The notes under the pieces are model-generated. The model did no database searches and was not told where the DNA came from. It saw nothing but the letters and a program-made list of their open reading frames with translations. 64,000 nucleotides of DNA from Cerasicoccus maritimus (GTDB lineage Bacteria; Verrucomicrobiota; Verrucomicrobiia; Opitutales; Cerasicoccaceae): assembly GCA_031296935.1 (NCBI GenBank), contig JAVDPD010000002.1:243239-307238 (forward strand), given 5' to 3'. Each line of letters starts with the position of its first letter. Positions within the stretch are counted from its first letter, which is position 1. Shown one piece after another: positions 5,789 to 56,064 of the stretch. A program made the position numbers and the translations under genes.

Positions 5789-5803
5789 CTTTGCCGCGCA
5801 AAG
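5789..5803. repeat. CTTTG-N5-CAAAG palindrome
   Basis: Exact copy with CCGCG as the central five bases, in the intergenic stretch after the ABC ATPase gene. Confidence 0.85.
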
Positions 5804-5927
5804 CTTAGCAGGCGACGCGGCCGATGAGCGCGTCGATCTTGTCGGCGAATGAGCGAACTGAGGCGAAGGGCTTATTGAAAAACAAGTCCATGCGGTGGCT
5901 TCACGGCGCAACTTGGCCGCTTGACTG

Positions 5928-6719
5928 TCAGTCGATTTTCAACTGCCAGCGATTATCGGGGCGGCTGAGCGTGATTGCGGCGCCGAATGCGTCACTGAGA
6001 ATTTCGCTGCTTAACACGTTTTCCGTGGGCCCTTGGGCGAGGGCTTCGCCGGCCTTGATCACGAGCGTGTGACTGAAGCCCGGGATGATCTCCTCCACGT
6101 GATGCGTGACGAGGACGATGGTCGGCGCGCTCGGCTGCTGCATGAGGTTGCCCACGGCCTGGAGGAAGTGTTCGCGCATCACGGGGTCGAGCCCGGCGCA
6201 GGGTTCGTCTAGAATCAGCAACACGGGGCGCGTCATCAGGGCGCGGGCAATGAACACACGCTGCCGCTCGCCTTGGCTGAGGTAGCGCCACTCGCGCTCG
6301 GCCAAATAAGCGGCACCCATGCGATCGAGGCAGTCGCGGGCAAAGCCAACATCCGGCGTGCCGGCGTTACGCGTCCAATAGCCGAGCTGGGCGGACGGGC
6401 CACTGAGTACCGTCTTGAGCGCGGGTTCGTCGAGTGGCACCTTCTGCGCGATGCCCGAGCTGACGAGCCCGATGCGTTGCCGCAGCGCTGGCCAGTTGGA
6501 CTGACCATACACCTGGCCATCGACTTCGATGCGGCCGCGGCTCGGGGTCAGGTAGGCCGTCAGCGATTGCAAAAGCGAGGTTTTGCCCGAACCATTGGCG
6601 CCGAGGATTACCCAATGCTGCCCGCGCTCCACGCGCCAGGAAACATCGCGCAGGATGGTGGTTTCCCCGCGGATGACGCTCAGGTCCCGGATGTCGATGA
6701 TCGCACTGCTGTCTGGCAT
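5928..6719 (-). CDS. ABC transporter ATP-binding protein, stand-alone
   Basis: A 263-residue ABC ATPase. Walker A is GANGSGKTS near residue 37, the signature is LSQGERQR near residue 148, Walker B is LLILDEPCAGLDP, and the H-loop is VTHHVEEI. The sequence HWVILGANGSGKTSLL is typical of the ModF/PhrA-like group of ATPases that have no dedicated permease nearby. No permease or binding protein is adjacent; the gene is divergent from an exported protein at 6818. Substrate or non-transport role is unknown. Confidence 0.88.
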   Translation of the reverse strand: MPDSSAIIDIRDLSVIRGETTILRDVSWRVERGQHWVILGANGSGKTSLLQSLTAYLTPSRGRIEVDGQVYGQSNWPALRQRIGLVSSGIAQKVPLDEPALKTVLSGPSAQLGYWTRNAGTPDVGFARDCLDRMGAAYLAEREWRYLSQGERQRVFIARALMTRPVLLILDEPCAGLDPVMREHFLQAVGNLMQQPSAPTIVLVTHHVEEIIPGFSHTLVIKAGEALAQGPTENVLSSEILSDAFGAAITLSRPDNRWQLKID

Positions 6720-6817
6720 ACGATCAAGGTGTGCCGCTTCCGGGGGAAAGACAAGTGCTCTAGTGTGGTGTCGTCTATGGATGATGTAAAATGCTGGACA
6801 ATCTGATTTCCCAATAA

Positions 6818-7615
6818 ATGATTGAAATTATGAAGTCTCTGATCTGGCTCATTGCCTTGTTTACTGTCACTGCCGCTAAGGCTGAAGTGGAGCGACCCTA
6901 TGGGCCGATCGCAGTCGCGGCGACCTTGGCGAAGGAATTACAAGACGTCAAAGGTGTGCGAATCGTGATTGAGATTGTGCATCAGAAGCCTGGTGATGAC
7001 CGGCCAATCATCATGACGGTGCACTCGCCGGAGGGAGATTTTCGAATGCCGGTCAACAACACTGGCGGCTTCACCTTACCAGATATCATCCAAGAGTTTT
7101 GGGCGGACTCCACCATTCAATCAAATTTGGAAAAAGGGGCAGTCGAGCTGAACTTCGGTCTCTATTTCGATGGCGATACAGATGGCAATAGCGCAGAGCC
7201 TATCGATTTGAAAAAGGGCAGTGAGAATATTGCCAGGCAAATCCAAGCGGTGGACCCCGAGGTCTGGCGTTGTACCCGCTACTGGAGCCGAAATTTTCCC
7301 GGTGGTCAGATTTTCTTTCACGGTGTAAATATCAACAAGGCTCAGGCGGAGCAGGGGCGGTGTGATATTTTGTTGGGTGAAAAATTGGTGGAATCAATCG
7401 ATATGGCTGGCGACGAAGTTGTTTTCTTGAGCTTCGAGCAATACCCATTGGACAAGGTTAGTTTTAAATTCGCTGGCACGAATGAAGATGATGATGGGAC
7501 CGTCAACTTTGCGCTTGGTTTCAGTCAACTGAATGAACCGCCTCCTCCGGGCGGGGTGATTCTCTGTGCGCTCTCGCCGGAGGGTCAGATCAGCTTCCCG
7601 ATGCTGGAGGAGTAG
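6818..7615 (+). CDS. Exported protein of unknown function
   Basis: A 265-residue protein with a clear Sec signal peptide (MKSLIWLIALFTVTAAKA, cleavage before EVERPYG). The start could be the ATG at 6818 or the one at 6830, which gives a better signal peptide. The mature part has no motif I recognise; it has three Cys, no lipobox and no membrane segment, so it is probably periplasmic. It ends 7 bases before the convergent heparinase-like gene. Confidence 0.7.
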   Translation: MIEIMKSLIWLIALFTVTAAKAEVERPYGPIAVAATLAKELQDVKGVRIVIEIVHQKPGDDRPIIMTVHSPEGDFRMPVNNTGGFTLPDIIQEFWADSTIQSNLEKGAVELNFGLYFDGDTDGNSAEPIDLKKGSENIARQIQAVDPEVWRCTRYWSRNFPGGQIFFHGVNINKAQAEQGRCDILLGEKLVESIDMAGDEVVFLSFEQYPLDKVSFKFAGTNEDDDGTVNFALGFSQLNEPPPPGGVILCALSPEGQISFPMLEE

Positions 7616-7622
7616 GCGCGCC

Positions 7623-9494
7623 TTACCAGTCGGCGTAGGCGTCTTCGGAAATGTATTTACTGGAGCCGCTACCGGGGCGCAGCTCGACAAGGAGGATCTC
7701 TTCGCTGTTGGCAGGGAGCTTGACCGTGAAGCCGATCATTTTGGCGCCGGGGTTGGGGGCGTCGTAGTCGTTGGGCGGTGGGTCCATTGGGTAAATTTCC
7801 AACTGCGCGTTGGCGGGGGATTTGACCACAAGTTCAAGCTGTTTTCCGTCCTGCCGAAGCGTGGCATGGGTGGGGCTGTCGATGGTCACATCAGCGCGGG
7901 TGGCCATGCCCCAGCGGATTTCCGTTTCGCGGTCGAGCGTTTCGACGACATCGCGGACGACGACTGTGCCGTGCTCGTGGCGACCGATGCCGCGGCGGGC
8001 GGATTTGAGTTGTCCGGTGTAGGCCTCGGTGGTGTCTACAATGGTGTGCGGGAAGGGGCCATCGGCGACGTCTTTCGTTATGGGAATTTCTCCGTTGAGG
8101 TCCATGTTTTGGCTGTCGACCATGAGCACGTTGTGGCTCTTGATGCCGAGGCGGAAAACATTCCAGCGCTGCTCGCCCCACAGCGATATGCCGATGCTTT
8201 CGAGGCTGTGGTAGTCTTGCATGCCGAGGTCGATTGCCCAGCGCACGCCGTCTGACTCCATGACGAAGGTTCCAGAATCCATATGGCCGTGGCCAGCGGA
8301 TGGTGAGCCTCCCTTGATGGCGTAGAATGTGGCGTTGGGGTCTTCCCAACTGGTGCGATGGAAGGCTACGGGCACTTCACCGTTGCCTTGCCAGTGCAGC
8401 TCGGTTGGCGGAGTGATGTCTTGTAGGGGCGGTGACCAGATCAGGGTGAACGGGAATAGGCGAGTGTCATGGCCGTCGGGGTTATGCTCTTTAGAGAGAA
8501 ACTCTTCCAGCAATGGGCGTTCGCGCCAGAGCAGGGATGGGTTTTGGGTTCGCTCGGCAAACCAAACCATCAAGTCGCTAAACCCGTTGCGCGGGCGGCA
8601 ATCTGAGTGATTGAAAAAGTCGCCGCTGGGTCCGGAGACATGAAGGTAATACTCGCTCGATTCGAGAAAGCCAGGTGCTTGCGAGAGGCCGAAGTCGGAA
8701 CCCAGCACCGAGGCTAGCGCACCGATCAGCAGCACGTTAAAGCTGGTGCCGTAGCTCCAATACATCGGGCCTTCGGGGTAGGCGCCATCGGGCGCATAGA
8801 CATCCATGCCGTAGTGGATGTTGTCGAGCGCGCGCTGGATTATCTGTTCGGCAAGCTCAGGCTCTTGCTCATAGACGACCAGGGCACCCATGACCATGCT
8901 GGCATGGCAGACTTGATTCCAGTTATTGCTGTGGTCGATCCACCACCAGTCTCTGTTCAGTGAGGGTTGGAGCCCCTTTTCGACAATAGCCTGGCGTATC
9001 GTCACACGGGCTTCTGGGCTGAGCGCCTGATAGCACCAATCGTAGCCGATCGCGAGGGCGGCGGTCATCTCGGCAGTGTCGAGAAAGTGTGTTGGATTCC
9101 AGTTACTGAAGGCGGCTACGTTGAGCATTTCAGCCTCAGCGCGCTGTGCGTATTGGGGGTTGCCAGTGAGGCGGTAGGCCATGCCGAGGTAGGCCATACG
9201 ACGCAGGCAGGCGCGCGATACGTCCAGCAGGCGACGGCCTTCCAGCTCGTATTGCAACAGCGGCAGCTCAAGCATTTGGTCCGCCAACTCGATTGTGTGT
9301 TGGGAAGCTTTGCGAAGCAAAGTATCCTGCTCGATCTTGGCCTTGCAGTCGTTTTCCTCGCTGGTGGGAAGGAACAGTCGTGGGTGAGACTTTGGGGCGC
9401 TGGCGAGTAACTCGGGCATATCTTGTGCCTTGGCTAAAGGAATGGCGAGTGACAGTGACGTTAGGACTATCAGAGCTATTCGGGTGAAGAGCAT
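7623..9494 (-). CDS. Heparinase II/III-family polysaccharide lyase, exported
   Basis: A 623-residue protein with a Sec signal peptide (MLFTRIALIVLTSLSLAIPLAKA). The N-terminal half is an alpha/alpha toroid with family hallmarks: HSNNWNQVCHAS near residue 188 and YAPDGAYPEGPMYWSYG near residue 237. The C-terminal half is a beta domain with SAGHGHMDSGTFV and a following Asp-rich stretch, as in heparinase II/III and related lyases (PL12/15/17/21). It should cleave uronate-containing polysaccharides in the periplasm by beta-elimination; the substrate cannot be read from sequence. An AraC regulator lies just upstream on the same strand. One CTTTG-N5-CAAAG palindrome lies inside it. Confidence 0.88.
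   Translation of the reverse strand: MLFTRIALIVLTSLSLAIPLAKAQDMPELLASAPKSHPRLFLPTSEENDCKAKIEQDTLLRKASQHTIELADQMLELPLLQYELEGRRLLDVSRACLRRMAYLGMAYRLTGNPQYAQRAEAEMLNVAAFSNWNPTHFLDTAEMTAALAIGYDWCYQALSPEARVTIRQAIVEKGLQPSLNRDWWWIDHSNNWNQVCHASMVMGALVVYEQEPELAEQIIQRALDNIHYGMDVYAPDGAYPEGPMYWSYGTSFNVLLIGALASVLGSDFGLSQAPGFLESSEYYLHVSGPSGDFFNHSDCRPRNGFSDLMVWFAERTQNPSLLWRERPLLEEFLSKEHNPDGHDTRLFPFTLIWSPPLQDITPPTELHWQGNGEVPVAFHRTSWEDPNATFYAIKGGSPSAGHGHMDSGTFVMESDGVRWAIDLGMQDYHSLESIGISLWGEQRWNVFRLGIKSHNVLMVDSQNMDLNGEIPITKDVADGPFPHTIVDTTEAYTGQLKSARRGIGRHEHGTVVVRDVVETLDRETEIRWGMATRADVTIDSPTHATLRQDGKQLELVVKSPANAQLEIYPMDPPPNDYDAPNPGAKMIGFTVKLPANSEEILLVELRPGSGSSKYISEDAYADW
9308..9322. repeat. CTTTG-N5-CAAAG palindrome
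   Basis: Exact copy with CGAAG in the centre, inside the heparinase-like gene, where it encodes LLRKA. Confidence 0.85.
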
Positions 9495-9573
9495 AGGCGC
9501 AATTTACCCACGAGCCCGAAGGCGGGGTCAATGGCAATAGAACGCGCCGGTACAGGCCGGATGGGGCACCGTT

Positions 9574-10530: not shown

Positions 10531-10550
10531 GGAAGATCGATGCGGCGAAG

Positions 10551-12212: not shown

Positions 12213-12230
12213 GGAGCAAAATTGGGATTC

Positions 12231-30798: not shown

Positions 30799-30813
30799 CT
30801 TTGTGATGCAAAG
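30799..30813. repeat. CTTTG-N5-CAAAG palindrome
   Basis: Exact copy with TGATG in the centre, in the gap between permease stop and ATPase start. Confidence 0.85.
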
Positions 30814-30819: not shown

Positions 30820-31749
30820 TTAGGACGCGGCGGGTTTGTTGGGCTTCAGCTTCTTGATAAAGCCCGGCAACACGAGTGCGGCGAAGACGAACACAGCGGT
30901 GATTAGCTTGAGGTCGTTCGGGTTGAGACCCCAGCGCAGCGCAATGGCCACGAGCAGGCGGAAGAGCACCGAGCCCATGACCGCCCCGATGATCGTGAGC
31001 CCGAGACTACGCTCACCAACGAGCGCCTCGCCAATGATCACACTGGCCAAGCCCCACACGATCATGCCGATGCCCATCTGCGCGTCGGCAAAGCCCTGAT
31101 ACTGCGCAAGAATCGCGCCGGCCAGCGCGACGAGTCCATTGGACACCGCCAGGCCAAAGACGACGTAGCGCTCCACGTTGGCGCCGAGGGCGCGGATCAT
31201 CTGCGGGTTGTTGCCGGTAGCGCGCATGGCAGTGCCGACATTGGTGCGGAAAAACCAGTAAAGCAGCGCGCCGACGAAGGCTACGAAGAACGCCGCGAGC
31301 ACCATCACAAAGAAGTCCGCCGTGTCGGTTTCCCAACCAAAGATGTCCATGTCCTCACTGCCCACAATCGCATGGCCAATGTCGGCACCGTAGTCGGTGA
31401 CGTTTTCGGTTTGGAGCAGCGGTACATTGCTGCGGCCCATGACATGGAGATTCACCGAGTAGAGCGCAGTCATCACAAGGATGCCAGCGAGCAGGGCGTT
31501 GATCTTAAACTTCGTATGCAGAATGCCGGTCACGGTGCCAGCCACGGCGCCTGCGGCGGCGCCAGCCAAGGTGGCGAGCACGGGATGCGTGCCGTTGACA
31601 ATGAGGATGGCCGCCGTAGCCGCGCCGAGCGTGATGCTGCCGTCCGTCGTGATGTCGGGAATATCGAAGATGCGGAACGACACGTAAACGCCCATCGCCA
31701 GGAGGGCGAGGATGAGGCCGATCGTCAGTGAGCCGAGGAGGAGAGTCAT
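30820..31749 (-). CDS. ABC transporter permease (BPD_transp_2 type)
   Basis: A 309-residue integral membrane protein with about eight TM helices. The signature FRIFDIPDITTDGSITLGAATAA near residues 26-48 and KFKINALLAGILVMTALYSVNLHVMGRSN are characteristic of permeases that pair with ABC_sub_bind binding proteins (TrpY-like). It ends 23 bases before the ATPase start and begins 15 bases after the STAS gene. A single permease gene implies a homodimeric channel. Confidence 0.93.
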   Translation of the reverse strand: MTLLLGSLTIGLILALLAMGVYVSFRIFDIPDITTDGSITLGAATAAILIVNGTHPVLATLAGAAAGAVAGTVTGILHTKFKINALLAGILVMTALYSVNLHVMGRSNVPLLQTENVTDYGADIGHAIVGSEDMDIFGWETDTADFFVMVLAAFFVAFVGALLYWFFRTNVGTAMRATGNNPQMIRALGANVERYVVFGLAVSNGLVALAGAILAQYQGFADAQMGIGMIVWGLASVIIGEALVGERSLGLTIIGAVMGSVLFRLLVAIALRWGLNPNDLKLITAVFVFAALVLPGFIKKLKPNKPAAS

Positions 31750-31764: not shown

Positions 31765-32964
31765 TTAAAATTGGGCGGGTGCGAACCAGCAGGCGCCGCG
31801 GTAGAACTGGCTTTCGCCTGCGCCGAGGACTGGCCGTGTATCGGCGAGCAGGTGGAGCACGGCTTGGATGCTGCGGTTTTCAAAAGCCTCACCGACTATC
31901 TCCGTCAGCTCGACTTGGCCCTTCTTCAGCGGATGGTAGGGGAAGGCGGCGGCGTGGAAGTGGCCGAGCAGTTTGCCTTCCGCATCTAAGGGACGAAGTT
32001 GCGCCTCAATGGGCGAGCCCGGGCGCGCAGCGATGCCCACGAGAAGCGTGGTCGAGTCGCGGTGAATGCGGTCCGCGCTGAAGGATAGCCAGTCGCGCAC
32101 GGCGGGGAATTTGAAACGCTCTTCTTCGCCAGCAGCCACAGGCGAACGTTGAAGCGCCGTGCCGATTAATCCGGCGGTTTCGGTCATTGCGACGATGACG
32201 GCGGCGTCAGACTTTGCGATGCAAAGTATTTGCTCGGCGAGTTCGGATAAGCCAATGACGCCGTGTTCGCCCTTGGCTTCGAAGCGTGTCAAGCCGGAGG
32301 GGAGGGCATCGGCGGAAATCGCGGAGATGACTTGGCCATCGGCTTTCAAGTCGCCATGCGTCACCATGAAGTCCGGTTGCTTGGCACCGTCGGTCGGTTG
32401 GTAGGTGACGTTGCCGGCGACGGCGAGCAGCTCGCCCATGCGGTCGTGGTTGTCCGTCGAGCTGCGGCCGATGGCACCGACGCCGAGCAGGACAGCGGGC
32501 GAATCAAAGTTGTGTAGCTCACCGGCTCCGGTGGCGACTGCGCGCTCGTCACCGATAGCCGTTACTTTGACGGCGGGTGGTTGCGCGGGGCCGTGGATTT
32601 CAAACTCGGCGACTTTGGAATCGTGACGCGTGACAACGCTGGCTTGCTCAGCTGGCTTGGCGGCGGGCTCGGCCATGAGCGTTTGCAGGCCAGCAAGGCG
32701 CAGGACGTTGGTGGTGTTCTCCGACGGATTGGTGATGATGAAGCTGCCGTCGATGCCCTTGAGCTGCTTAAAGGTTTTCAGCAGCAGGCGAATGCCGGCC
32801 GAGCTCAGGTAATGCACGTCGGCGAGGTCGAGCTGCACATGGTGTTCGCCACGGCGAATGGTCTCGTCGAACACTGAGCCGAGGTGGTCGCACCAACTGG
32901 CGTCGAGGCGGCCGTTGAGCTTTAGCTGGGTGACGCTGCCGTCTTTGATGGTTTCGATTTGCAT
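31765..32964 (-). CDS. STAS-domain protein inside the ABC importer operon
   Basis: A 399-residue protein. Residues 1-100 are a STAS/anti-sigma antagonist domain (LNGRLDASWCDHL, VQLDLADVHYLSSAGIRLLL, where the SS sits at the site phosphorylated in SpoIIAA). A low-complexity linker (AEPAAKPAEQAS) follows, then about 280 residues of unknown fold with the end GESQFYRGACWFAPAQF. No membrane segment is evident. It begins 4 bases after the binding-protein gene and precedes the permease, so it is fixed within the transport operon, an unusual place for a STAS protein. It may tie uptake to a partner-switch regulatory pathway. Confidence 0.8.
   Translation of the reverse strand: MQIETIKDGSVTQLKLNGRLDASWCDHLGSVFDETIRRGEHHVQLDLADVHYLSSAGIRLLLKTFKQLKGIDGSFIITNPSENTTNVLRLAGLQTLMAEPAAKPAEQASVVTRHDSKVAEFEIHGPAQPPAVKVTAIGDERAVATGAGELHNFDSPAVLLGVGAIGRSSTDNHDRMGELLAVAGNVTYQPTDGAKQPDFMVTHGDLKADGQVISAISADALPSGLTRFEAKGEHGVIGLSELAEQILCIAKSDAAVIVAMTETAGLIGTALQRSPVAAGEEERFKFPAVRDWLSFSADRIHRDSTTLLVGIAARPGSPIEAQLRPLDAEGKLLGHFHAAAFPYHPLKKGQVELTEIVGEAFENRSIQAVLHLLADTRPVLGAGESQFYRGACWFAPAQF
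32212..32226. repeat. CTTTG-N5-CAAAG palindrome
   Basis: Exact copy with CGATG in the centre (extended: ACTTTGC/GCAAAGT), inside the STAS gene, encoding LCIAK. Confidence 0.85.
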
Positions 32965-39533: not shown

Positions 39534-40967
39534 ATGAAAGTTGCGATCGTTCATTACCACCTGAAGCCAGGCGGGGTCACCCGTGTGGTTGAGAATGCGT
39601 ATGCTTCCCTTGTGGGGAAGGGCGTGGAAATAGTTGCTTTGGCGGGTGAGCCCTACATGGGGGATTCGCCGATGCTGACTGCTGTGGTGCCTGGTTTGGG
39701 TTACACGCAGGCCAATGAAAAACCGGATCCCGGTGCGCTGTGGTTTTCGTTGAAGCAGGCCGCGCGTGAGGCGTTGGGCAGCGAGCCGGATGTGTGGCAC
39801 ATTCACAACCACTGCCTGGGCAAAAACATGGCGATGCCGCAGGTGGTTGACCGGCTGGCTCAGGAAACGCCGGTGCTGCTTCAGATCCATGACTTTGCGG
39901 AAGACGGGCGCCCGGGCAACTACGCGGCTATAGCTTCGCAAACGACCAACATGGATCTGCTTTACCCGCAGGCCTCGCAGGTGCACTACGGTTTGCTCAA
40001 TTCCCGAGACTTGAGCTTTCTATCGCAAAGTGGCTTTGCATCACAAAGCTTGCACCTGGTCCCGAACCCGATTTCCGTACCCGAGCTGTCGGCTGAGCGC
40101 GCGACATTAGCGGGCTTTGAGGAACGCAAACTGATCTTGTATCCAACGCGGGCGATTCGCCGAAAAAACCTGGGCGAGCTGCTTCTGTGGGCCGCACTTT
40201 CGGAAGGAGGCGAAACGTTTGCGACGACGCTCACGCCAGCTAATCCCACGGCATTGCCAGTCTACAATCGCTGGATGGAGTTTGCGGGTGAGCTGAGTTT
40301 GCCCGTTCGTTTTGCACTGGGCGAATCCGTGACGCTGTCGTTTCCGGAGCTGATGTCCAGTGCCGATGCCATCATTACCACGAGCGTCGCCGAAGGCTTC
40401 GGCTTGGCGTTTTTGGAACCCTATCTTTTTGGCAAGCCGCTGGTGGGCCGCAACCTGAGCGACATCACTTGCGACTTCACGAACACCGACGTCGACCTTG
40501 GCTCGCTATACGATCGCCTGATGGTTCCTATTGATTGGGTGGGCGTCGGTGAGGTGCGCGATGTGCTGGCGCATGCGCTGTGCGACTACTACGACGCCTA
40601 TAATCGCGATTTGCCGCTGGAAGCAATCGACAATGCCTTTGACGCGATGACCGACGGTGATCGCATTGAGTTTGGCCGCCTTTCGGAAGCTTTGCAGGAG
40701 AAAGTCATCGCGCGCGTGCAGGCCGACCCGTCGCTGCGCAGCGTGGTAGCGCCGCAACAGCTGGGCATCGCTTCGGCCGCAGATTGCGTGGCGGCAAACC
40801 GCGAGGTGATCGCGCAGAATTTCAACCTTGAGCGCTACGGTCAAAACCTAGCTGCGATTTACGCTAAGGTCGCGAACTCCCCGGTCGAGCCATTGGAGCG
40901 CATGTCGCACACGGCGGTGCTGGATCAATTCCTCGACCCACGACGCTTCAACCTTCTACGCACCTAA
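39534..40967 (+). CDS. GT4-like glycosyltransferase, probably for glycosylated glycerate
   Basis: A 477-residue GT-B protein. The N-terminal Rossmann half starts KVAIVHYHLKPGGVTRVVENAY, and DVWHIHNHCLGKN and LLQIHDFAEDG follow. The C-terminal half has YPTRAIRRKNLGELLLWA (nucleotide-sugar contacts) and TTSVAEGFGLAFLEPYLFGKPLVGRN, the E-x7-E-like GT4 motif. Behind gpgS it could add a second sugar, as MggA does in mannosylglucosylglycerate synthesis, but this is inference. No dedicated phosphatase gene is adjacent. It contains overlapping CTTTG/CAAAG palindromes at 40025-40048. Confidence 0.82.
   Translation: MKVAIVHYHLKPGGVTRVVENAYASLVGKGVEIVALAGEPYMGDSPMLTAVVPGLGYTQANEKPDPGALWFSLKQAAREALGSEPDVWHIHNHCLGKNMAMPQVVDRLAQETPVLLQIHDFAEDGRPGNYAAIASQTTNMDLLYPQASQVHYGLLNSRDLSFLSQSGFASQSLHLVPNPISVPELSAERATLAGFEERKLILYPTRAIRRKNLGELLLWAALSEGGETFATTLTPANPTALPVYNRWMEFAGELSLPVRFALGESVTLSFPELMSSADAIITTSVAEGFGLAFLEPYLFGKPLVGRNLSDITCDFTNTDVDLGSLYDRLMVPIDWVGVGEVRDVLAHALCDYYDAYNRDLPLEAIDNAFDAMTDGDRIEFGRLSEALQEKVIARVQADPSLRSVVAPQQLGIASAADCVAANREVIAQNFNLERYGQNLAAIYAKVANSPVEPLERMSHTAVLDQFLDPRRFNLLRT
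40034..40048. repeat. CTTTG-N5-CAAAG palindrome
   Basis: Exact copy with CATCA in the centre, inside the GT4-like gene. An inverse-order GCAAAG-TGG-CTTTGC hairpin at 40025-40039 shares its left arm. Confidence 0.85.
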
Positions 40968-46548: not shown

Positions 46549-47088
46549 TCAGTCCACCGAGTCGCTCACGGTGGCTTCGCGGGCGAGGAGCCAGAGGGCG
46601 TCGGCGAGACGGTTGAGGTATTGTAATAACACCGGGCGGACAATGCCTCCTTTGCCTTGTAAAGTCACTACCATGCGCTCGGCGCGGCGGCAGGTGCTGC
46701 GGGCTTGGTCGAAAAATGCTTGGGCGGGATTTTCTCCGGGGAGCATCCAGCCGTCGAAACCGCCGGACTCAGATTCCAGCGTTGTGACGATTGCATCGAG
46801 GCGCGCAAGGTTGTCTTCGGTAATCGGGTGCTTGGCTTTTTCCTGATAGCGATCCTGGTCGGTGTTGTCCACGGCCAGCTCGGCCATGAGGCTGATCAGC
46901 TCTTGCTGGGTAGAAAAAATGAACTCGCGCGCTCGGCTGCCGGCTGCGTGAGCGCGGCATAGGCCGAGAGCGGAGTTCAATTCGTCCACCGTCCCGTAGG
47001 CGACTACTCGGGGATGATCTTTCGCCACGCGGCGACCGAAGACCAAAGAGGTCGTACCTTGATCTCCGCGTTTGGTTGCGATGGACAT
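46549..47088 (-). CDS. Cob(I)alamin adenosyltransferase (PduO/ATR type)
   Basis: A 179-residue enzyme forming adenosylcobalamin from cob(I)alamin and ATP. Family marks: the ATP-binding TKRGDQGTTSLVFGRRV-type N-terminus, VVAYGTVDELNSALGLCRA, the FDGWMLPGENPAQAFFDQARSTCRRAER segment, and the end YLNRLADALWLLAR. It stands 90 bases after the carboxyltransferase gene on the same strand. Adenosylcobalamin is the cofactor of methylmalonyl-CoA mutase, which fits with a carboxyltransferase of the oxaloacetate/methylmalonyl group. A TAC-repeat tract fills its leader. Confidence 0.93.
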   Translation of the reverse strand: MSIATKRGDQGTTSLVFGRRVAKDHPRVVAYGTVDELNSALGLCRAHAAGSRAREFIFSTQQELISLMAELAVDNTDQDRYQEKAKHPITEDNLARLDAIVTTLESESGGFDGWMLPGENPAQAFFDQARSTCRRAERMVVTLQGKGGIVRPVLLQYLNRLADALWLLAREATVSDSVD

Positions 47089-47093
47089 TTTTC

Positions 47094-48846: not shown

Positions 48847-48891
48847 TTGCCGAATCCAACTGGAAAAAAAGTGGCTGGAAGGCGATTCTAC

Positions 48892-51270
48892 TTACCGGCT
48901 CAGCCAGAACCACGGCGTAATCAGCGTAACGATGGAGCTGAGCGGCATGAGGATGGCCGCGAGCAGTGGGTGCATCGCGCCAGCCAGGCAGATTGAAACC
49001 GCCACGACGTTGTAAATGATCGCCAGCGCGAAGATTGCGTTGACGGCTTGGCGTCGCTGATTAGCCAAGCGAAATAAATCCGGCAGGCAGCCAATGCTGC
49101 GGCCAAAGAAAAAGAAATCTGCCGAGGCTTCGAGCAAACTACGGTCAACGATGGGAGCGCCGCGGCAAATGGCGCGGTCGAAGGCCAGACGGTCGTTGGC
49201 ACCGTCGCCAATCATCAGCGCGGAGTCGGGAGCGAACTCACCGATCCAGTCCGCCTTGGCGTCGGGGGAGCATTGGGCGCGGGCTTGGGGCTCATCGATG
49301 CCGAGGAGTTTGGCAATGCGGCCGACGTTCGCCTGGGCGTCGCCACTGAGGATCGCGATGTCGTAGTGTTTGCGCTTCAGCCAGTCCATGGCCTCGCGGG
49401 CGTCATCGCGGATGTCTTCTTCGAAGCGGAAAGTGGTGATGAGTTGGCCGTTGCAGCGGAGCTCGCTGGCACCGCTAACTTTGCCATGCAAAGTATCTTG
49501 GCATTCGTGCAGGGGAGACCATTCGGGTTTCCCGAGGCTCCAGCAGTCGCCGTCGTTGGTGATGAAGTAAACGCCTTGGCCCACGGTCTCCTGATTGACC
49601 GCTGGCACTGCCTGGAGCTGCAGCGATGGGTAGCGCAGGAGCAGGCTTTCGCGGATGGAGCGCGCGACGGGATGCAGGTTGTTTTCCACCAGGCGATGAA
49701 GCGCGAGGGTGGAGAGGCTGCTGAGGCGGTCGAGGATGCCGGCGTTCGTCAGGCGCGGCGTTTCGAGGGTGAGCGTGCCGGTCTTGTCAAAGACGACGGT
49801 GCGGACTTGGCGCAAGCGTTCCCAGATGCTGTGGTCGCGAACGAAGAGCCCGAGGCGTCGTAACTTTGTCTGGCAAAGTTCGTCGGTCATCGGCAGCGAA
49901 ACGCCGATGGCGCACGGGCAGGAAACGATCAGCACCGAGATGAACACTTGTAGAGCGTTGATTAACCCACCGCCCGCAATCAACCAGCCTGCGCCGCCGA
50001 GAATCGATGTGGCGATGACCACGCTGATGTAAATCGTGAGCACGCGCTGAAGCCGCTTGGCGTGAAAATTATCCTTGGGTGGTTCGAGTAAGCGAGCGAG
50101 CAGGCTGTCGGCCCAGGATTCTTCGGCGGTCAGTGCGACGGCGTTGAGGCCCACATTGACGGCGCCTGCGGGCGCGACCTGCTGGGCTTCCCAGGCGACG
50201 GGATCCGGCTCGCCGTTAATCCATTCCAGGCTCAAGGAGGCGTTGGCGTGGAGGCGCGCGGCCACGGGGTTGATTTCGCCCGGAGCGACGATAAACGAGT
50301 CGCCGCGCTTGACGGATTCAATCGGCTTGCGCGCGCCGTCATCGGGCCCTCCAAAGGCGGTGACGTATTGGTTCTCGGCGTGGCGCTTGTTCAGATGCTG
50401 GCGATTTTTCTCCAGCGCAAACTCCTGCAGCCAGCGCCCCACGAGCATGAGGAAAACAAAGGTCGCAACGAAATCGAAATAGATCAGGTTGGCCGCGCCG
50501 CTGAGCCAACCCAGCATGGAGCCGATGTAGGCAACGCCCAAGCCGAGCGCGATCGGGAAGTCGATCGACAATACTTTGTGTTGCAAAGCTTTCGCAGCGC
50601 GGCGGAAGAAATAACTGCCACCCACGGCTAAGCTGAGCGTGGCAAAAAGCGCGCCAAGCAGTTGGAAAAGTGGCGCGAGAAAATAATCCTCCTCCATGCC
50701 GAGGTAGGCTGGCAGGGTGAAGAGCATGGTGTTGAGCAGGAAGAAGCCGCTGATGCCGATGCGGTAGGCGATGTCGCGCGAGGAGCTTGTTTTCGCGGAC
50801 TTGTCTGGCTCGGGTACGACTTCGTAGCCTAGCTTTTGCAACTCGCGCGCAAAGAGTACGGCGTCGAATTGGCCGACTTCCCAACGTGGGCGGATCGCGC
50901 CGGTGCGCGCATCGATGTTGATCGAAATTGAGCCGGGTTGGGCGTCGTAAACCGCTTCGATTAGCCACACGCAGCCGACACAGGATATGCCGCGGATGCC
51001 GAAGGCGAGCTCGGCGACTGGGCCGGTGGCCTCGGCCTCGGCTTTGTCGACAGCCTCTTTGAGCCAGACGGCGTCGATGGTGCGAAACGCGCGCGAGCCG
51101 ACAGGCGGCGTGGCCTGGCTGCCTTTTAAATCATAGAATCGCGTGAAGCCCACGTCGTGCAAGAGCTGATAGACATACGCGCAACCGTGGCAGCAGAACC
51201 GTTCCTCAGCCTTGGGCTGGAAGGGCGTGCCGCAATGTTCGCAGTGGGTCTTCTTGCTGGTGGTGGCCAT
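48892..51270 (-). CDS. ccoI: Cu+ P-type ATPase of the cbb3 oxidase cluster (CcoI/FixI)
   Basis: A 792-residue heavy-metal P1B ATPase that delivers copper for cbb3 oxidase assembly. The N-terminus has a Cys cluster (HCEHCGTPF and RFCCHGC) and a metal-binding GISCVGC. The transport motif is SCPCAIG in TM6, the phosphorylation site DKTGTLT, the HP motif NNLHPVARSI, and the hinge MIGDGANDRLA. Eight TM helices are expected. It is the last gene of the minus-strand oxidase operon, 6 bases after a small single-TM gene. Three exact CTTTG-N5-CAAAG palindromes lie in it. Confidence 0.95.
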   Translation of the reverse strand: MATTSKKTHCEHCGTPFQPKAEERFCCHGCAYVYQLLHDVGFTRFYDLKGSQATPPVGSRAFRTIDAVWLKEAVDKAEAEATGPVAELAFGIRGISCVGCVWLIEAVYDAQPGSISINIDARTGAIRPRWEVGQFDAVLFARELQKLGYEVVPEPDKSAKTSSSRDIAYRIGISGFFLLNTMLFTLPAYLGMEEDYFLAPLFQLLGALFATLSLAVGGSYFFRRAAKALQHKVLSIDFPIALGLGVAYIGSMLGWLSGAANLIYFDFVATFVFLMLVGRWLQEFALEKNRQHLNKRHAENQYVTAFGGPDDGARKPIESVKRGDSFIVAPGEINPVAARLHANASLSLEWINGEPDPVAWEAQQVAPAGAVNVGLNAVALTAEESWADSLLARLLEPPKDNFHAKRLQRVLTIYISVVIATSILGGAGWLIAGGGLINALQVFISVLIVSCPCAIGVSLPMTDELCQTKLRRLGLFVRDHSIWERLRQVRTVVFDKTGTLTLETPRLTNAGILDRLSSLSTLALHRLVENNLHPVARSIRESLLLRYPSLQLQAVPAVNQETVGQGVYFITNDGDCWSLGKPEWSPLHECQDTLHGKVSGASELRCNGQLITTFRFEEDIRDDAREAMDWLKRKHYDIAILSGDAQANVGRIAKLLGIDEPQARAQCSPDAKADWIGEFAPDSALMIGDGANDRLAFDRAICRGAPIVDRSLLEASADFFFFGRSIGCLPDLFRLANQRRQAVNAIFALAIIYNVVAVSICLAGAMHPLLAAILMPLSSIVTLITPWFWLSR
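49479..49493. repeat. CTTTG-N5-CAAAG palindrome
   Basis: Exact copy with CCATG in the centre (extended ACTTTGC/GCAAAGT), inside ccoI, encoding TLHGKV. Confidence 0.85.
49864..49878. repeat. CTTTG-N5-CAAAG palindrome
   Basis: Exact copy with TCTGG in the centre (AACTTTG/CAAAGTT), inside ccoI, encoding LCQTKL. Confidence 0.85.
50574..50588. repeat. CTTTG-N5-CAAAG palindrome
   Basis: Exact copy with TGTTG in the centre, inside ccoI, encoding ALQHKV. Confidence 0.85.
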
Positions 51271-51276
51271 GGCAGG

Positions 51277-51465
51277 CTACTCTGCTTGGTCGGTGGTGGT
51301 TTGTTGGGCGACGGGCTCTTCGAGCGGAACGATCTCGGTGGGGTGCTTTTTCGCGATGACGATGAGCGTGGTCCACGCGGCGATGAGCAAGATGAAGGCA
51401 AGCGTCACCGGAATCCACAGCGAGAGCTTGATGCCCTTTTTATTCTTTTCCGGTTGCTGACTCAT
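51277..51465 (-). CDS. Small single-TM protein between ccoG and ccoI (FixH-position)
   Basis: A 62-residue protein from ATG 51465 (MSQQPEKNKK), one TM helix (LSLWIPVTLAFILLIAAWTTLIVIA), a short Glu/Gln-rich tail. It overlaps the 3' end of ccoG by 26 bases and ends 6 bases before ccoI, the place where fixH/ccoH stands in cbb3 operons. It is much shorter than usual FixH (about 150 residues) and I cannot confirm homology. Confidence 0.7.
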   Translation of the reverse strand: MSQQPEKNKKGIKLSLWIPVTLAFILLIAAWTTLIVIAKKHPTEIVPLEEPVAQQTTTDQAE

Positions 51466-52870
51466 GTTCTTGGAAGAGGCGTGGATCGGGGCCGAGGAAT
51501 TCGGTCTCACGGGTTATGATGGTTTCGCCATCGGCTGAGAGCAGTGCAATGGTCACGGGAAATTTGCCAGCGTAGTTGTCTTTGGAAATGGTCACGATGA
51601 TCGGTTGAACGAGCTCGCCCAAGGACTCGACGCTGATTGCCTCCTCGTTGCCGGCGACGGTGACTGGGTGGCCTTCGGCAGTGGCGAGGATGGTGTAAGT
51701 TTGCTCGCTGTCGGTCTTGTTGATGATGCGGACCATGTATTGATTGCGCAGGCCGGTGTCCGTGATGAAGTAGGGCGAGCCGGTCATGCGGACAACATTC
51801 ATGTTCGCGCTCTTGAGCTTGGTTGCTGAGAAGCTCATTGCGGCGAGGCCGAGTAGCATGAGGAAGCCGTAGAGGAACAAACGCGGGCGAATGATACGCG
51901 TCTTTTGGCCGCTGAGTCCGTTCATCGAGTCGTAGCGGACGAGGCCTTTTTCGCGGCCGAGTTTGGCCATGATCGCATCGCACGCATCGATGCAGTTCGA
52001 GCAGCCGATGCACTCGATTTGCAGGCCTTGGCGGATGTCGATGCCGGTGGGGCAAACCTGCACGCAGCGGCGGCAGTCAATGCAGTCGCCGATGTCGGTC
52101 TTCTTGGCCGGGCCGCGGGGTTCGCCGCGTTTTTCATCGTAGCCGATGACGATGGAGTCATCGTCGATCAGCGCGGATTGGAGGCGACCATACGGGCAGA
52201 TGACGAGGCAGAGCTGCTCGCGGAACCACGAGAAGTTGAAATAGATAATCCCTGTGGCGATGAAGACGAACAGGAATGCAGTCCAGTGCTCCAGCGGGCT
52301 ATGCGTCATCCACACATACAGCTGCTTGATCGACACAAAGTAGGAGAGGAAAATGTGCGCAATGAGCAGCGAGACAATGATGAACAGCGAGTGCTTGATG
52401 ACGCGCAAGGTGACTTTGTGGGCGTCCCAGTCTTTGCGGTCCAGTTTTTTGCGGGCGGTGTGATCGCCTTCGATAATGCGCTCGATGCGGCGGTAAACGT
52501 GCTCTAGAAACACCGTTTGCGGGCAGGCCCAGCCGCACCAGATGCGGCCAAAGAGCGAGGTGATGACATACAGCGAAAACCCAAGGCCGGTGATGAAGAA
52601 GAACATCATCCAGAGGTCTTGCGCGGCAAAGGTCAGCCCGAACAAGTGGAAGCGCCGCAACGCGACATCGAGGAACACCGCCGGGTATCCGTTGATTGGA
52701 ATCCACGGCAGGGCGATGTAAACCAGGATGAGCAGGACGGCGGTTACTCTGCGAAGCAAAGTAAACTTACCGCTCACATCCGCCGGGTGCAGAAAGAAGC
52801 GCGAGCCGTCTTGGTTGATCGTCGTGACGGACTCGCGAATCGGTTTCTTGTTGGCGGCGGGGGCGGACAT
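51440..52870 (-). CDS. ccoG: Cytochrome c oxidase accessory protein CcoG (FixG/RdxA)
   Basis: A 476-residue membrane ferredoxin-like protein. Five TM segments lie in the N-terminal 250 and middle part, with the polytopic iron-sulfur motif WCGWACPQTVFLEHVYRRIER and ICPYGRLQSALID. Two 4Fe-4S motifs follow: CIDCRRCVQVCPTG and CIGCSNCIDACD. The C-terminal third is an IgG-like FixG_C domain (NQYMVRIINKTDSEQTY). It acts in copper reduction and delivery for cbb3 assembly. It lies 12 bases after ccoP. Confidence 0.96.
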   Translation of the reverse strand: MSAPAANKKPIRESVTTINQDGSRFFLHPADVSGKFTLLRRVTAVLLILVYIALPWIPINGYPAVFLDVALRRFHLFGLTFAAQDLWMMFFFITGLGFSLYVITSLFGRIWCGWACPQTVFLEHVYRRIERIIEGDHTARKKLDRKDWDAHKVTLRVIKHSLFIIVSLLIAHIFLSYFVSIKQLYVWMTHSPLEHWTAFLFVFIATGIIYFNFSWFREQLCLVICPYGRLQSALIDDDSIVIGYDEKRGEPRGPAKKTDIGDCIDCRRCVQVCPTGIDIRQGLQIECIGCSNCIDACDAIMAKLGREKGLVRYDSMNGLSGQKTRIIRPRLFLYGFLMLLGLAAMSFSATKLKSANMNVVRMTGSPYFITDTGLRNQYMVRIINKTDSEQTYTILATAEGHPVTVAGNEEAISVESLGELVQPIIVTISKDNYAGKFPVTIALLSADGETIITRETEFLGPDPRLFQEHESATGKE

Positions 52871-52882
52871 GCGGTGTTGTTT

Positions 52883-53455
52883 TTATTCGCCAGCAGCGCG
52901 CAGGGTAGCCTCGTCGTTTTTGCTCATGACATAGGCGACGACTTCGGTGATCTGCTTTTGGCCAAGGACGGGGCCCCAGGCCTGCATCCCCTTGTCGGGC
53001 ACGCCGTCGAACACTGTCGTGTAGATGTCGGATGGCTTGGCTCCGTGGACCCACTCGCCGTCGACGAGGTTGAAGCCGATGCCGCCCTTCAGGTCGGCGC
53101 CGTGGCAGGGGACACAGTTGGACTGATACGTCTTTTCGCCTGCCGTGAGGAACGATGAGTTCTTGCTCATATCCCAGAACATATCGTTGTTGGTGACGTC
53201 GATGGAGTTGGCGAGGCGAATGGCGTTGATTTGCTTCATCTGATCTTCGACGCGCTCCTGGTTACTTTGCGATCCAGAGTAATACTGATAGACCAGGAAA
53301 TACGCGGCCGCAAACAGCATGGCGCCATATAGCGTGATGAGCCACCAGCGCGGCAAGCGTTGGTCATACTCCTGAATGCCGTCGTAGGTATGCTCCTTGA
53401 GGACGACGCCTTTCGGCAGGTCCTCTTGTTTAACTGAAGGTGGTTCGTGGCTCAT
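52883..53455 (-). CDS. ccoP: cbb3-type oxidase subunit CcoP, single-heme form
   Basis: A 190-residue subunit. The N-terminal part has the CcoP signature YDGIQEYDQRLPRWWLITLYGAMLFA with one TM helix. A single c-type cytochrome domain follows with CVPCH (residues near 114) and axial Met in KGMQAWG. Canonical CcoP has two heme c domains and about 300 residues; only one CxxCH is present here. Its ATG overlaps the ccoQ stop (ATGA). Confidence 0.93.
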   Translation of the reverse strand: MSHEPPSVKQEDLPKGVVLKEHTYDGIQEYDQRLPRWWLITLYGAMLFAAAYFLVYQYYSGSQSNQERVEDQMKQINAIRLANSIDVTNNDMFWDMSKNSSFLTAGEKTYQSNCVPCHGADLKGGIGFNLVDGEWVHGAKPSDIYTTVFDGVPDKGMQAWGPVLGQKQITEVVAYVMSKNDEATLRAAGE

Positions 53456-53634
53456 GCTTTTGTTTCAGTTTCCGGGGTGTCGTCTTCGAGCGGAAGGTTG
53501 CCCATGTGGTCAACGAAGTCCTTCTTGAAGCACAGGGCGCGGACGGTGATGACGATGAACACGCCAAAGGTCAGCCAGAAGGAAAGAACGGGGACGATGT
53601 TGGTCCAGTTGTCGTAAACGATGCGCTTGAACAT
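53452..53634 (-). CDS. ccoQ: cbb3-type oxidase small subunit CcoQ-like
   Basis: A 60-residue single-TM protein (NIVPVLSFWLTFGVFIVITVRALCFKK) with an acidic tail (PLEDDTPETE), placed between ccoNO and ccoP as CcoQ is. It overlaps ccoP by 4 bases. CcoQ stabilises the oxidase. Sequence conservation in this family is low, so the call rests on size, TM pattern and position. Confidence 0.88.
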   Translation of the reverse strand: MFKRIVYDNWTNIVPVLSFWLTFGVFIVITVRALCFKKDFVDHMGNLPLEDDTPETETKA

Positions 53635-53646
53635 AACTTTGCTGGG

Positions 53647-56064
53647 TTAGTTGTTAGCTGGTGTTGCGGTGGCGACGGATTCAAAGGGGAGGTGGGTTGC
53701 CTCTTCTTTTTCCTGCTTTTTCTTTTCGTTGGTCATCTCGAACGCGCCGAGTTTTTGCAGGTAAGCAATGACGGCGACGATCTGCTTTTCCTTCTCGACG
53801 AAGACGCCGCTCGCAGCGAGGTCGTCGACGATTTCCTGGGCCTGCAGATTGTATTCAGCCATGACTTCTTCTTCGGACAGACCGATGTCGTAGGGGACAC
53901 CGAGCATGCGCATGGCGTTGATCTTCGACATGAGCGTGCCGGTCTTGGCGTCCTTGAATTGCAGCCAATCGTAGTTGGGCATGTTGGAGCCATCGGAGAC
54001 TTGGCGTGGGTCCACGAGGTGGAGGTAATGCCAGTCGTTGGAGCGCTTGCCCACGCGCATGAGCTCGGCGCCCTTCTGGATGTCGCCGCCTTCGCGGGCG
54101 AGGTCCGGGCCGGTGCGCTTGGAGCCCCACTGGAACGGGTGGTCGTAAATCGATTCACCGAGGCGCGAGTAGTCGCCGTAGCGGAGGATGTCGGGTGTCA
54201 TGGTGCGGATCATTTGCGAGTGGCAGTTGTAGCAACCTTCACTCACGTAGATGTCGCGGCCGGTGAGCTCGAGCGGCGTGTAGGCAATTTGCAAACGGCC
54301 CTCAATGTTGCTTGCGCGCTGCACGGTGACGGTGGGGATGATCTGCACGGCGCCGCCGATGGCTGCCGCAATGATGGTCAGCACGGTAAAGGTGAGGCCG
54401 TGCTCTAGGAGCTGGTCATACCACTCGCTCCACTTGGCACCGCTGAACTCGAAGTGCGAGATCGCCGCCAGGGTGAAGACACCGGTAAAGAATACGCCGA
54501 CGAGGAAGACCGGGCCCTTGCCGAAGATCAACATCGCAGCCGAACCGAGGATCAGCACGCTGTAGATAACCGGTGGGTTGAGGTAGCCACGGAACTTCTT
54601 TTCGTCGCCAGTCATTTCCTGCATGGCCGACTCGACCTCGACGGTGCCGTTAACCGGCGAACCGCTCTTGACCGTCTTGTAGATGTTGAAGGCCAGCATG
54701 AAGAAGCCCGTCAGGTAAAGGCCACCGCCAATCAGACGGAAGAGCATCATCGGGCGAATGGCTTGCAGGGTGTCGAGGAAGTTCGGGTATTTCAGCAGGG
54801 TGCCTTGCTCGATTGTGTCGTTGAGCATGAGGCCCTGCGTGATGCCCGATACCCACATCGCTGCGACGTAAAGGAGGATGCCGACCATGCCCAGCCAGAA
54901 GTGGAGGTTGGCCATGCCCTGCGAGTAAAGCTTTGTATTCCAAAGTCTCGGCGCGAGCCAGTAGGTCATGCCGGCTGCCATGAAGCCATTCCAGCCGAGG
55001 GTGCCGCCGTGCACGTGTCCGATGGTCCAGTCTGAATAGTGGGAGAGCGCGTTGACGGACTTGATCGACATCAGCGGGCCTTCAAAGGTGGCCATGCCGT
55101 AGAACGTCACGCCTGCGGCGAAGAACTTAATGACCGGATCGGTGCGAAGCTTGTCCCAGGCTCCACGGAGTGTCAGCAGGCCGTTGAGCATACCGCCCCA
55201 AGACGGCGCCCAGAGCATCAGGCTGAAGAGCATGCCCAGCGTTTGGAGCCAGCCGGGGAGGGCGGTGTTGAGCAGGTGGTGCGGACCGGCCCAGATGTAA
55301 ATGAACACCAGCGACCAGAAGTGGATGACGGACAAACGGTAGGAGTAAACCGGGCGTCCCGCCGCCTTTGGCACGAAGTAATACATGATGCCGAGGATCG
55401 GCGTCGTTAAGAAGAACGCCACGGCGTTGTGCCCATACCACCATTGGACGAGGGCGTCTTGCACGCCGCCAAAGATCGGGTAGCTGTGCAGGAAGCTGGT
55501 CGGCAGCGAAAGGTGGTTGACCACGTACAGCATCGTCACGGTGACGATGGTTGCGATGTAGAACCAGATCGCGACGTAGAGGCTCTTTTCGTTGCGCTTG
55601 GCCAGCGTCCAAAAGAAGTTTGCGGCGAAGACGAGCCAGATGACGGCGACCAGGATATTGATCGGCCAGATGAGCTCGGCGTATTCCTTACCGCGGCTGT
55701 AGCCGAGGGGCAGGGTGATCGCCGCGAGCACGATGATGAGCTGCCAGCCGAAGAAGTGAATCTTCGTCAGCAAGTCATTGCCGAGTCGGCAACGGCAAAG
55801 GCGCTGCGTGGAGTAATAAATGCCGGCAAACATCATGTTGCCGACGAAGGCGAAGATCGCCGCGTTGGTATGGAGCGGACGCAGGCGCCCGAAGGTCAGC
55901 CACTCCATGTTGAAATTCATCTGGAAGAAGTTGAGCTGAGACGCGACGAGAACGCCGGCGCTCAAGCCAACCAAGGCCCAGACGATGGATGCGATCAGGA
56001 ACCAGCGGACCGACTTGTCGTCGTATTCGATGGTGGTGGTTGCGGTGCGGGTTGTAGTACTCAC
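53647..56064 (-). CDS. ccoNO: cbb3-type cytochrome c oxidase, fused subunits I and II (CcoNO)
   Basis: An 805-residue fusion. Residues 1-480 are CcoN with 12 or more TM helices and heme-copper ligands: His in PLHTNAAIFAFVGN, QWWYGHNAVAFFLTTPILGIMYY (CuB His), the AGPHHLLNTALP His pair, and the heme His in DWTIGHVHGGTLGWNG. From about residue 570 comes the CcoO part with a TM anchor and one heme c motif GCYNCHSQMIR. Fused N-O proteins are known from several phyla. It is the terminal oxidase for low oxygen. It starts 4 bases inside the ccoS stop. Confidence 0.97.
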   Translation of the reverse strand: MSTTTRTATTTIEYDDKSVRWFLIASIVWALVGLSAGVLVASQLNFFQMNFNMEWLTFGRLRPLHTNAAIFAFVGNMMFAGIYYSTQRLCRCRLGNDLLTKIHFFGWQLIIVLAAITLPLGYSRGKEYAELIWPINILVAVIWLVFAANFFWTLAKRNEKSLYVAIWFYIATIVTVTMLYVVNHLSLPTSFLHSYPIFGGVQDALVQWWYGHNAVAFFLTTPILGIMYYFVPKAAGRPVYSYRLSVIHFWSLVFIYIWAGPHHLLNTALPGWLQTLGMLFSLMLWAPSWGGMLNGLLTLRGAWDKLRTDPVIKFFAAGVTFYGMATFEGPLMSIKSVNALSHYSDWTIGHVHGGTLGWNGFMAAGMTYWLAPRLWNTKLYSQGMANLHFWLGMVGILLYVAAMWVSGITQGLMLNDTIEQGTLLKYPNFLDTLQAIRPMMLFRLIGGGLYLTGFFMLAFNIYKTVKSGSPVNGTVEVESAMQEMTGDEKKFRGYLNPPVIYSVLILGSAAMLIFGKGPVFLVGVFFTGVFTLAAISHFEFSGAKWSEWYDQLLEHGLTFTVLTIIAAAIGGAVQIIPTVTVQRASNIEGRLQIAYTPLELTGRDIYVSEGCYNCHSQMIRTMTPDILRYGDYSRLGESIYDHPFQWGSKRTGPDLAREGGDIQKGAELMRVGKRSNDWHYLHLVDPRQVSDGSNMPNYDWLQFKDAKTGTLMSKINAMRMLGVPYDIGLSEEEVMAEYNLQAQEIVDDLAASGVFVEKEKQIVAVIAYLQKLGAFEMTNEKKKQEKEEATHLPFESVATATPANN
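54931..54945. repeat. CTTTG-N5-CAAAG palindrome
   Basis: Exact copy with TATTC in the centre, inside ccoNO, encoding RLWNTKL, a segment that looks native to CcoN rather than inserted. Confidence 0.85.

Follow-up and report, generated by a model that had tools for sequence, protein, structure and literature searches.

How does a short palindrome come to stand, letter for letter, at many scattered places inside and between the genes of one bacterial chromosome? The question is raised by a stretch of 64,000 nucleotides from Cerasicoccus maritimus (Verrucomicrobiota, Puniceicoccales) (the window; C2:243,239-307,238 in the 4.81-Mb, 66-contig genome labelled here G000), in which CTTTG-N5-CAAAG occurs in nine exact copies, each of them at the position reported in an earlier sequence-only reading of the same DNA (Table 1). 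In this work, motif statistics and comparative genomics were combined with protein family searches to propose a reader for these sites. From sequence comparison, we consider it fairly probable that the motif is the operator of a dimeric autorepressor with a helix-turn-helix (HTH) domain of the HTH_34 family, which would have been multiplied along the Cerasicoccus chromosome and for which an architectural role is predicted. The HTH_34 protein itself is very likely the reader of the sites, as judged from linkage and from its autoregulatory position.

In 100 dinucleotide shuffles of the window, the mean number of copies was 0.11 and the maximum was 2, in agreement with the previous estimate of about 0.1 chance pairs; the accompanying count of roughly 85 CTTTG was low (96 CTTTG and 103 CAAAG are present). 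In total, the window genome contains 285 copies vs 4 for a reversed-pattern control. In a 464-kb sample, which consists of the window and 400 kb from contigs C2 and C3 of the same genome, there are 36 copies with a central spacing k of five bases, 0-5 copies at every other k within 0-30, and 0-4 occurrences of the opposite order, CAAAG-Nk-CTTTG. Within the 366 open reading frames (ORFs) of this sample (at least 100 amino acids (aa), simple longest-ORF rule), 31 sites were found; when synonymous codons were shuffled within genes 200 times, the average was 1.07 and no shuffle gave more than 5. The sequence-only reading had named a sharp peak at k=5 as the mark of a genuine signal, and counts no higher than at other spacings or in codon-preserving shuffles as grounds for abandoning it; the peak is present and exceeds both.

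One-mismatch forms are in modest excess in the 464-kb sample (43 vs 15-35 at other spacings 0-11; mean 14.7 and maximum 39 for permuted half-sites) and two-mismatch forms are at the background level; therefore, the core is regarded as strict. Among 42 one-mismatch forms with the correct extended bases, 23 carry C at the second T of the T-run, and 11 carry C at the G. The flanks and the centre are palindromic as well, and the both-strand consensus covers approximately 21 bp: wWRCTTTGC-RWY-GCAAAGYWw. Chance and codon usage were ruled out as the origin by the dinucleotide shuffles, the other spacings, the permuted half-sites and the synonymous-codon shuffles, and we are close to certain that the sites of this 17-21 bp palindrome are under selection.

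Other origins of the motif were considered and rejected. Read in the sense direction, N1 and N5 are C and A, which cannot pair, in 18/95 cases and T and G, a wobble pair, in 9/95. The excess of C-A over T-G is the reverse of the preference of an RNA stem, and an RNA hairpin was therefore rejected, codon effects being still included in these counts. Insertion of a repeat was discarded on the basis that the flanks carry almost no information past approximately 3 bases and that orthologous codons differ by base changes. The strong enrichment (285 vs 4) is at odds with the avoidance that is usual for restriction-modification sites. Literature searches for the exact string of the motif and for "Cerasicoccus" with "palindrom" gave no match in the papers searched, and a broader search gave nothing relevant among the matches listed.

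The expansion of the motif is confined to a small group of relatives among the 54 genomes compared in all. Two further Cerasicoccus genomes contain 311 and 312 exact copies, and C. arenae (G003), the nearest named relative as judged from a window protein, contains 79; two sister genera of the same family contain 47 and 91 copies and a third genus 2-6. In the remaining families of the order, the counts range from 0 to 20 and are in most cases close to the control (0-12). The extended form follows the same gradient, with 250, 266, 264 and 65 copies in Cerasicoccus, 60 and 18 in the two sister genera and 0-3 in the third genus (controls, 0-2). In a survey of the phylum, the extended site was present in 123 of 387 genomes; by our reading of the table approximately 15 of them have more than two copies, including 2 Cerasicoccus. 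In a scan of viral contigs, there was one site place per contig among the matches listed.

Individual sites are also held in place, as the sequence-only reading had expected of a functional mark. In alignable stretches, G000 sites are common to the sister species G001 in 6/7 cases, to the sister species G002 in 5/7 and to C. arenae in 3/5, and any ten equally spaced bases are shared in 19%, 13% and 7%, respectively. In this comparison, some G000 sites were counted in more than one species pair, and the stretches had been selected: for G001 and G002 because they surround the ccoI region or contain clusters, and for C. arenae because they contain clusters. The 792-aa P-type ATPase of the window (Pfam E1-E2_ATPase), which we take to be CcoI-like, carries three sites, all of them kept in G001 and G002 at 77-82% DNA identity. 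None of the three is present in the CcoI-like gene of C. arenae; comparison with the homologous codons of that gene shows that the site goes together with L to V and I to K changes.

A candidate reader is suggested by the rare sites of other families, which are sometimes paired approximately 1 kb apart in the phylum scan. Twenty listed places from other Verrucomicrobiota families were fetched; they were chosen for site pairs or mostly A...T-flanked sites, and their contents were not known beforehand. At 15 of the 20 loci, the site lies beside a two-gene operon encoding a membrane protein of approximately 200 aa and a winged-helix protein of approximately 125 aa. The winged-helix protein belongs to HTH_34 (PF13601; two relatives score above the cut-off, with E 6.8e-19 and 4.3e-21), and the stretch T-D-G-N-L-x-R-H-L is identical in 13/13 aligned sequences. 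The Pfam assignment was made on two relatives, and the Cerasicoccus HTH protein matches the profile of 13 relatives with E 4.6e-42. For the membrane proteins that were scanned, no match above the cut-off was found in Pfam or NCBIfam. In 11 of the 15 operon loci, the site ends 27-52 bp 5' of the membrane-protein start, and five of these 11 have an extra CTTTG half-site 17 bp further on. In the four loci L265, L270, L271 and L272, the site is located 3-24 bp past the HTH stop codon; the gene beyond it encodes an HMG-CoA synthase in the one that was scanned and homologues in the others, which suggests a second conserved target. The RWY centre is present in 16 of the 20 exact sites of the operon loci and in 24/51 sites of G000.

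The same operon is present in the family of the window, where the HTH_34 gene is single-copy in nine of ten genomes; the genome that lacks it, G005, has no extended site. In 4/4 Cerasicoccus genomes, an exact-core site ends 3-4 bases ahead of the first ATG of the operon, that of the membrane-protein gene, and a degenerate second site is located 18 bp upstream; in G000 this site (C3:150,370) and the HTH gene (C3:149,378-149,728) lie outside the window. The other reader-bearing genomes of the family have sites with 0-1 mismatch upstream of the operon in 5/5 cases: one-mismatch operators at the membrane-protein gene plus an exact site further upstream in G004 and G006, two exact sites 34 bp apart in G009, and two sites in G008 and one in G007 with one mismatch. 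The earlier proposal of a mark read by a protein and formed through base changes thus has good support from the sharp spacing, the strict core, the positional conservation between species and the co-localising candidate reader.

In the explanation that we propose, a protein dimer would read the 17-21 bp palindrome, as its symmetry, strictness and conservation imply. In the ancestral state, still seen in other Verrucomicrobiota, the operator would be rare and usually placed at the repressor's own two-gene operon. In Cerasicoccus, it would have spread by point mutation under selection to approximately 80-310 copies, mostly intragenic and largely held in place, with a lesser spread in the two sister genera; the dispersed operators look like an approximately hundredfold multiplication of the autorepressor operator. 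The predicted HTH_34 target in Cerasicoccus is WWRCTTTGCRWYGCAAAGYWW. Judging from their geometry, neighbouring dimers on 18-bp tandems may act together. The reader would decorate or bridge the chromosome rather than switch host genes, and the membrane protein of its operon might help it to tether the chromosome to the membrane, a partnership guessed from gene order. An architectural role of the dispersed sites in the chromosome, perhaps including attachment to the membrane, is a tentative guess, made because of the intragenic spread, the lack of a gene theme and the analogy with SlmA, Noc, MatP and SdpR/SdpI. The more ambitious form of this guess, in which an autorepressor and membrane-protein module would have turned into a chromosome-wide mark-and-tether system that anchors or organises the whole nucleoid via approximately 300 conserved operators, standing singly, in clusters or in 18-bp tandems, is somewhat unlikely.

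The distribution of the sites along the chromosome bears on what they do. In G002, 46 sites are present on C1 (856 kb), 33 on C2 (758 kb) and at least 21 on C3 (first 374 kb). The GC skew of C2 switches from plus to minus near 340 kb, as at a terminus, and six sites at ordinary density lie in 294,852-374,475; this placement is derived from 8-kb skew samples of one species. In G004, the region of 2.0-3.5 Mb is poor in sites, and a terminus-type skew switch is found near 3.9 Mb. Among the places listed, gaps below 1 kb are in excess in G002 (22/97, 4.7 expected), G000 (12/47, 3.7) and C. arenae (9/38, 1.4). At a finer scale, a search around 129 sites gave 12 near-sites with up to two mismatches at a distance of exactly 18 bp, which form nine pairs; 18 bp is the sole spacing to stand out in the range of 12-119 bp, where the mean per distance is 0.31. 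This tandem geometry is found both at dispersed sites and at the candidate reader's own promoter. As a separate observation, 18-bp tandems 3' of a long gene that resembles ribonucleotide reductase by eye (L027 ~17990, L045 1970 and L071 16822) are present in two Cerasicoccus species and have decayed to near-sites in G000. An alternative role for the dispersed operators would be titration or counting, in which they act as HTH_34 decoys and expression of the membrane-protein operon follows the chromosome copy number or replication state. The match of the sites to the operator, their presence along all three G002 contigs listed and their location mostly away from promoters are as such a role would predict. 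However, titration needs a number of sites and not fixed positions, whereas most of the compared sites are held in place, and it has no need of the clustering seen in G002; we regard it as improbable.

The gene context of the sites was analyzed in 742 kb of sequence whose single stretches had not been picked for their sites, using simple ORF calls whose individual assignments may err. In this sample, 52 of 63 sites are intragenic (approximately 57 expected), and the first third of genes is depleted (12 sites vs 18.8 expected). Sites are enriched between convergent genes (6 vs 1.2 expected) and, among intergenic sites, up to 40 bp past a stop codon (6 vs 1.2 expected). No gene-function theme was evident in a Pfam scan of 60 ORFs, the majority of which carry sites (the 20 window ORFs include some that are site-free), and a functional regulon defined by shared gene function was rejected on this basis. 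The site-bearing genes include MutL, POR, cellulase, threonine dehydratase, UvrA-like, SNF2 and P-type ATPase genes; the last of these recur, alongside many other functions. A global transcription regulon, in which the HTH_34 protein acts like a roadblock or a terminator in the gene that carries or precedes the site, would account for the enrichment between convergent genes and past stop codons and for the resemblance of the protein to a repressor. It is hardly probable, given the location of most sites within ORFs, the depleted 5' third and the lack of an evident common function.

Several observations weigh against an expanded HTH_34 operator. Five of the 20 fetched places (L261, L264, L269, L273 and L274) lack the operon. 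The Cerasicoccus operon operator has no R/Y flank on one side and is therefore a misfit to the extended form. One-mismatch operators arise by chance at approximately 20 per 464 kb, and because of this background, single ones are weak evidence. In the 742-kb sample, intergenic sites up to 80 bp ahead of a start number 4 vs 2.2 expected. In a second set from five genomes (16 loci with 30 sites), an HTH_34 relative stands beside the site only at one G285 place, covered by three overlapping loci, and at one G222 place, both relatives being more distant; no HTH_34 was found in the remaining 3-kb loci of this set, including those of G009 (where the operon is beyond the locus), a G222 pair and G069. 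Finally, three genomes of the third genus (G007, G008 and G009) have the candidate reader and operator-like sites without the spread; therefore, something besides the protein drives the expansion. The co-localisation could reflect another protein acting at the HTH_34 operon. In its general form, this alternative holds that an unrelated chromosome-organising protein reads the sites and that the HTH_34 operon is merely one target throughout the phylum, and the failure of HTH_34 presence to predict the spread speaks for it. The linkage of site and operon, however, is found again at each of 15 loci, spread over many families, and the remaining places that were fetched are unlike one another. This linkage is most simply read as autoregulation by the winged-helix protein that the operon encodes; an unrelated reader is thus quite improbable.

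A DNA-uptake-type signal kept by transformation drive, with its likeness to the operator arising from chance or ancestry, would share with our motif the strict short core, the origin by point mutation in genes with amino-acid changes, the preference for convergent intergenic stretches, the confinement to one species group and a copy number of approximately 300, which falls in the range of "hundreds to thousands" that an excerpt of PMC2346458 states for such motifs, but it is very improbable, as the perfect dyad symmetry and the 21-bp span fit a dimeric DNA-binding protein and the match with a phylum-wide operator would be a coincidence. The uptake sequences of Neisseriaceae and Pasteurellaceae are likewise over-represented short motifs with intragenic copies in the hundreds; they have an orientation (PMC2346458, in part), whereas the Cerasicoccus motif is palindromic, unorientated and matches the operator found across the phylum.

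Among the known chromosome-organising systems, the sequence-only reading had pointed to matS, a comparison that finds no support in detail. MatP (PF06303) was detected in 0/10 genomes of the family and in the E. coli control, and the G002 sites, spread over the contigs seen including the terminus-type skew switch, are not confined to a terminus domain; membership in the MatP/matS system was therefore rejected. The matS site of the E. coli Ter macrodomain is described as GTGAC-RNY-GTCAC (PMC3116907, in part). Both systems have dispersed short palindromes with a sequence-specific reader, proven for matS and proposed here, and the 5-3-5 lay-out of matS with its R-N-Y centre is repeated in TTTGC-RWY-GCAAA. 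However, the sequence is another one, as is the fold of the candidate reader, and matS has 23 copies in the terminus only, whereas the Cerasicoccus motif has approximately 300 in three species, including a terminus-type region.

SlmA and Noc, which act in nucleoid occlusion, also use chromosomal palindromes, numbering 24-52 SlmA-binding sites (SBS) and approximately 70 Noc-binding sites (NBS), and Noc associates with the membrane, according to excerpts of PMC4726725. What is alike is the use of dozens of palindromes along the chromosome by a protein that binds DNA and comes from a transcription-factor or partition family. In contrast, SBS and NBS are under-represented near the terminus, where the G002 motif seems to keep its ordinary density, as judged from the 8-kb samples of this one species; Cerasicoccus has several-fold more sites, and its candidate reader is an HTH_34 protein and not a TetR or ParB protein. 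One strong ParB_N match is present in each of the ten family genomes, including site-free ones. Weaker extra matches (E 5.9e-9 or worse) occur in G000, G001, G002, G004, G005 and G008 and are missing from the site-bearing G003 and G006; a second ParB of the Noc type was rejected as the reader, none being common to the site-bearing genomes. No standard parS was found around parB with a pattern search.

In Bacillus subtilis, SdpI sequesters SdpR at the membrane. The HTH protein weakly matches the SdpR family model, far below the cut-off (E 0.0067 and 2.7e-4); the gene order, however, is reversed, and the membrane protein matches no family above the cut-off. We know of no report of hundreds of sites for SdpR. 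By sequence, the solved structure nearest to the candidate reader is that of PH1061 (PDB 1ub9; E 5.6e-13), an archaeal protein of the HTH_34 type, for which no link to repeated chromosomal sites is known to us. Literature searches for PH1061, PF13601 and HTH_34 by name gave unrelated matches only. The analogies with chromosome organisation and with SdpR/SdpI draw on parts of PMC4726725, PMC3116907 and PMC6818787.

The comparison offers a likely DNA target for the uncharacterised operon of an HTH_34 and a membrane protein in many Verrucomicrobiota families. To our knowledge, chromosome-organising site systems have been described in few bacteria. Within one family we see a graded series that runs from an autoregulatory operator up to hundreds of sites and for which a single-copy candidate reader can be named; it bears on the question of how a gene regulator turns into a protein of the whole chromosome. 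The multiplication of the palindrome to as many as approximately 300 copies, mostly intragenic, suggests that in Cerasicoccus a local regulator has turned into a system that marks DNA across the chromosome. If this is true, a transcription-factor-type protein would have been recruited independently once more for organising a chromosome, and the intermediate stages (2-6, 47, 79, 91 and approximately 300 sites) would still be alive within a single family.

Table 1. Exact and one-mismatch palindromes in the window (positions of the whole stretch)
Feature	Position	Context
Exact site	5789..5803	between genes; no ORF of at least 80 aa covers it
Exact site	9308..9322	within heparinase-like gene, ORF 7623-9494 (-)
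Exact site	30799..30813	directly past the stop of permease ORF 30820-31749 (-); overlaps the start given for the ABC-ATPase ORF
Exact site	32212..32226	within STAS-domain ORF 31765-32964 (-)
One-mismatch site, CTTTC variant	40016..40030	exactly 18 bp ahead of the 40034 site, forming a tandem pair
Exact site	40034..40048	within glycosyltransferase ORF 39534-40967 (+)
Exact site	49479..49493	CcoI-like P-type ATPase gene; kept in two sister species despite protein indels there
Exact site	49864..49878	CcoI-like gene; kept in two sister species
Exact site	50574..50588	CcoI-like gene; kept in two sister species
One-mismatch site, commonest tolerated type (CTCTG)	52747..52761	within FixG-like ORF 51440-52870
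One-mismatch site, commonest tolerated type	53265..53279	
Exact site	54931..54945	within fused CcoN-CcoO ORF; identical in two sister species

Four exact copies had been assigned to oxidase genes, and this count is correct, with three in the 792-aa P-type ATPase gene and one in the fused CcoN-CcoO ORF. The latter (53647-56064, minus strand) encodes COX1 (CcoN) and FixO (CcoO) domains in a single 805-aa ORF, apparently a fused cbb3 oxidase subunit. Of the one-mismatch forms listed previously, those at 46650, 52747 and 53265 are real, and the one placed at 40689 starts at 40690; further forms are present at 5238, 5336, 36566 and 40016. A phage-integrase gene (58370-59692, plus strand) opens a stretch of lower GC content that reaches to 64000 (52% then 45% GC in 4-kb windows) and is probably an integrated element. 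The absence of copies after 58.3 kb had been noted; the absence is true and uninformative, as approximately 0.3 copies are expected there at the genome density.

Repeats and excesses of the short motif were also noticed in other genomes. In relatives from the order, the short form exceeds its control in G020 (17 vs 4), G033 (13 vs 2) and G050 (20 vs 1), and the 17 listed sites of G020 have no common centre. G069 has 15 extended sites of the GCTTTGC...GCAAAGC type, some of them repeating every 35 bp, with no HTH gene in the four loci seen; they are likely repeats of another kind and were treated as unrelated. In L261 (2277, 3786 and 10944) and L273 (3059), where the operon is absent, the sites belong to repeats around ACTTTGCGTAGCAAAGT among small ORFs, with an identical 21-bp context in the three copies of L261 and the same core in L273; this repeat is perhaps associated with a cassette or element and unrelated to the operator. 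In G004, identical 15-base sites occur exactly 35,720 bp apart at C1:4479343, 4515063, 4550783 and 4586503, which points either to a 35.7-kb segment repeated in tandem or to an artefact of the assembly.

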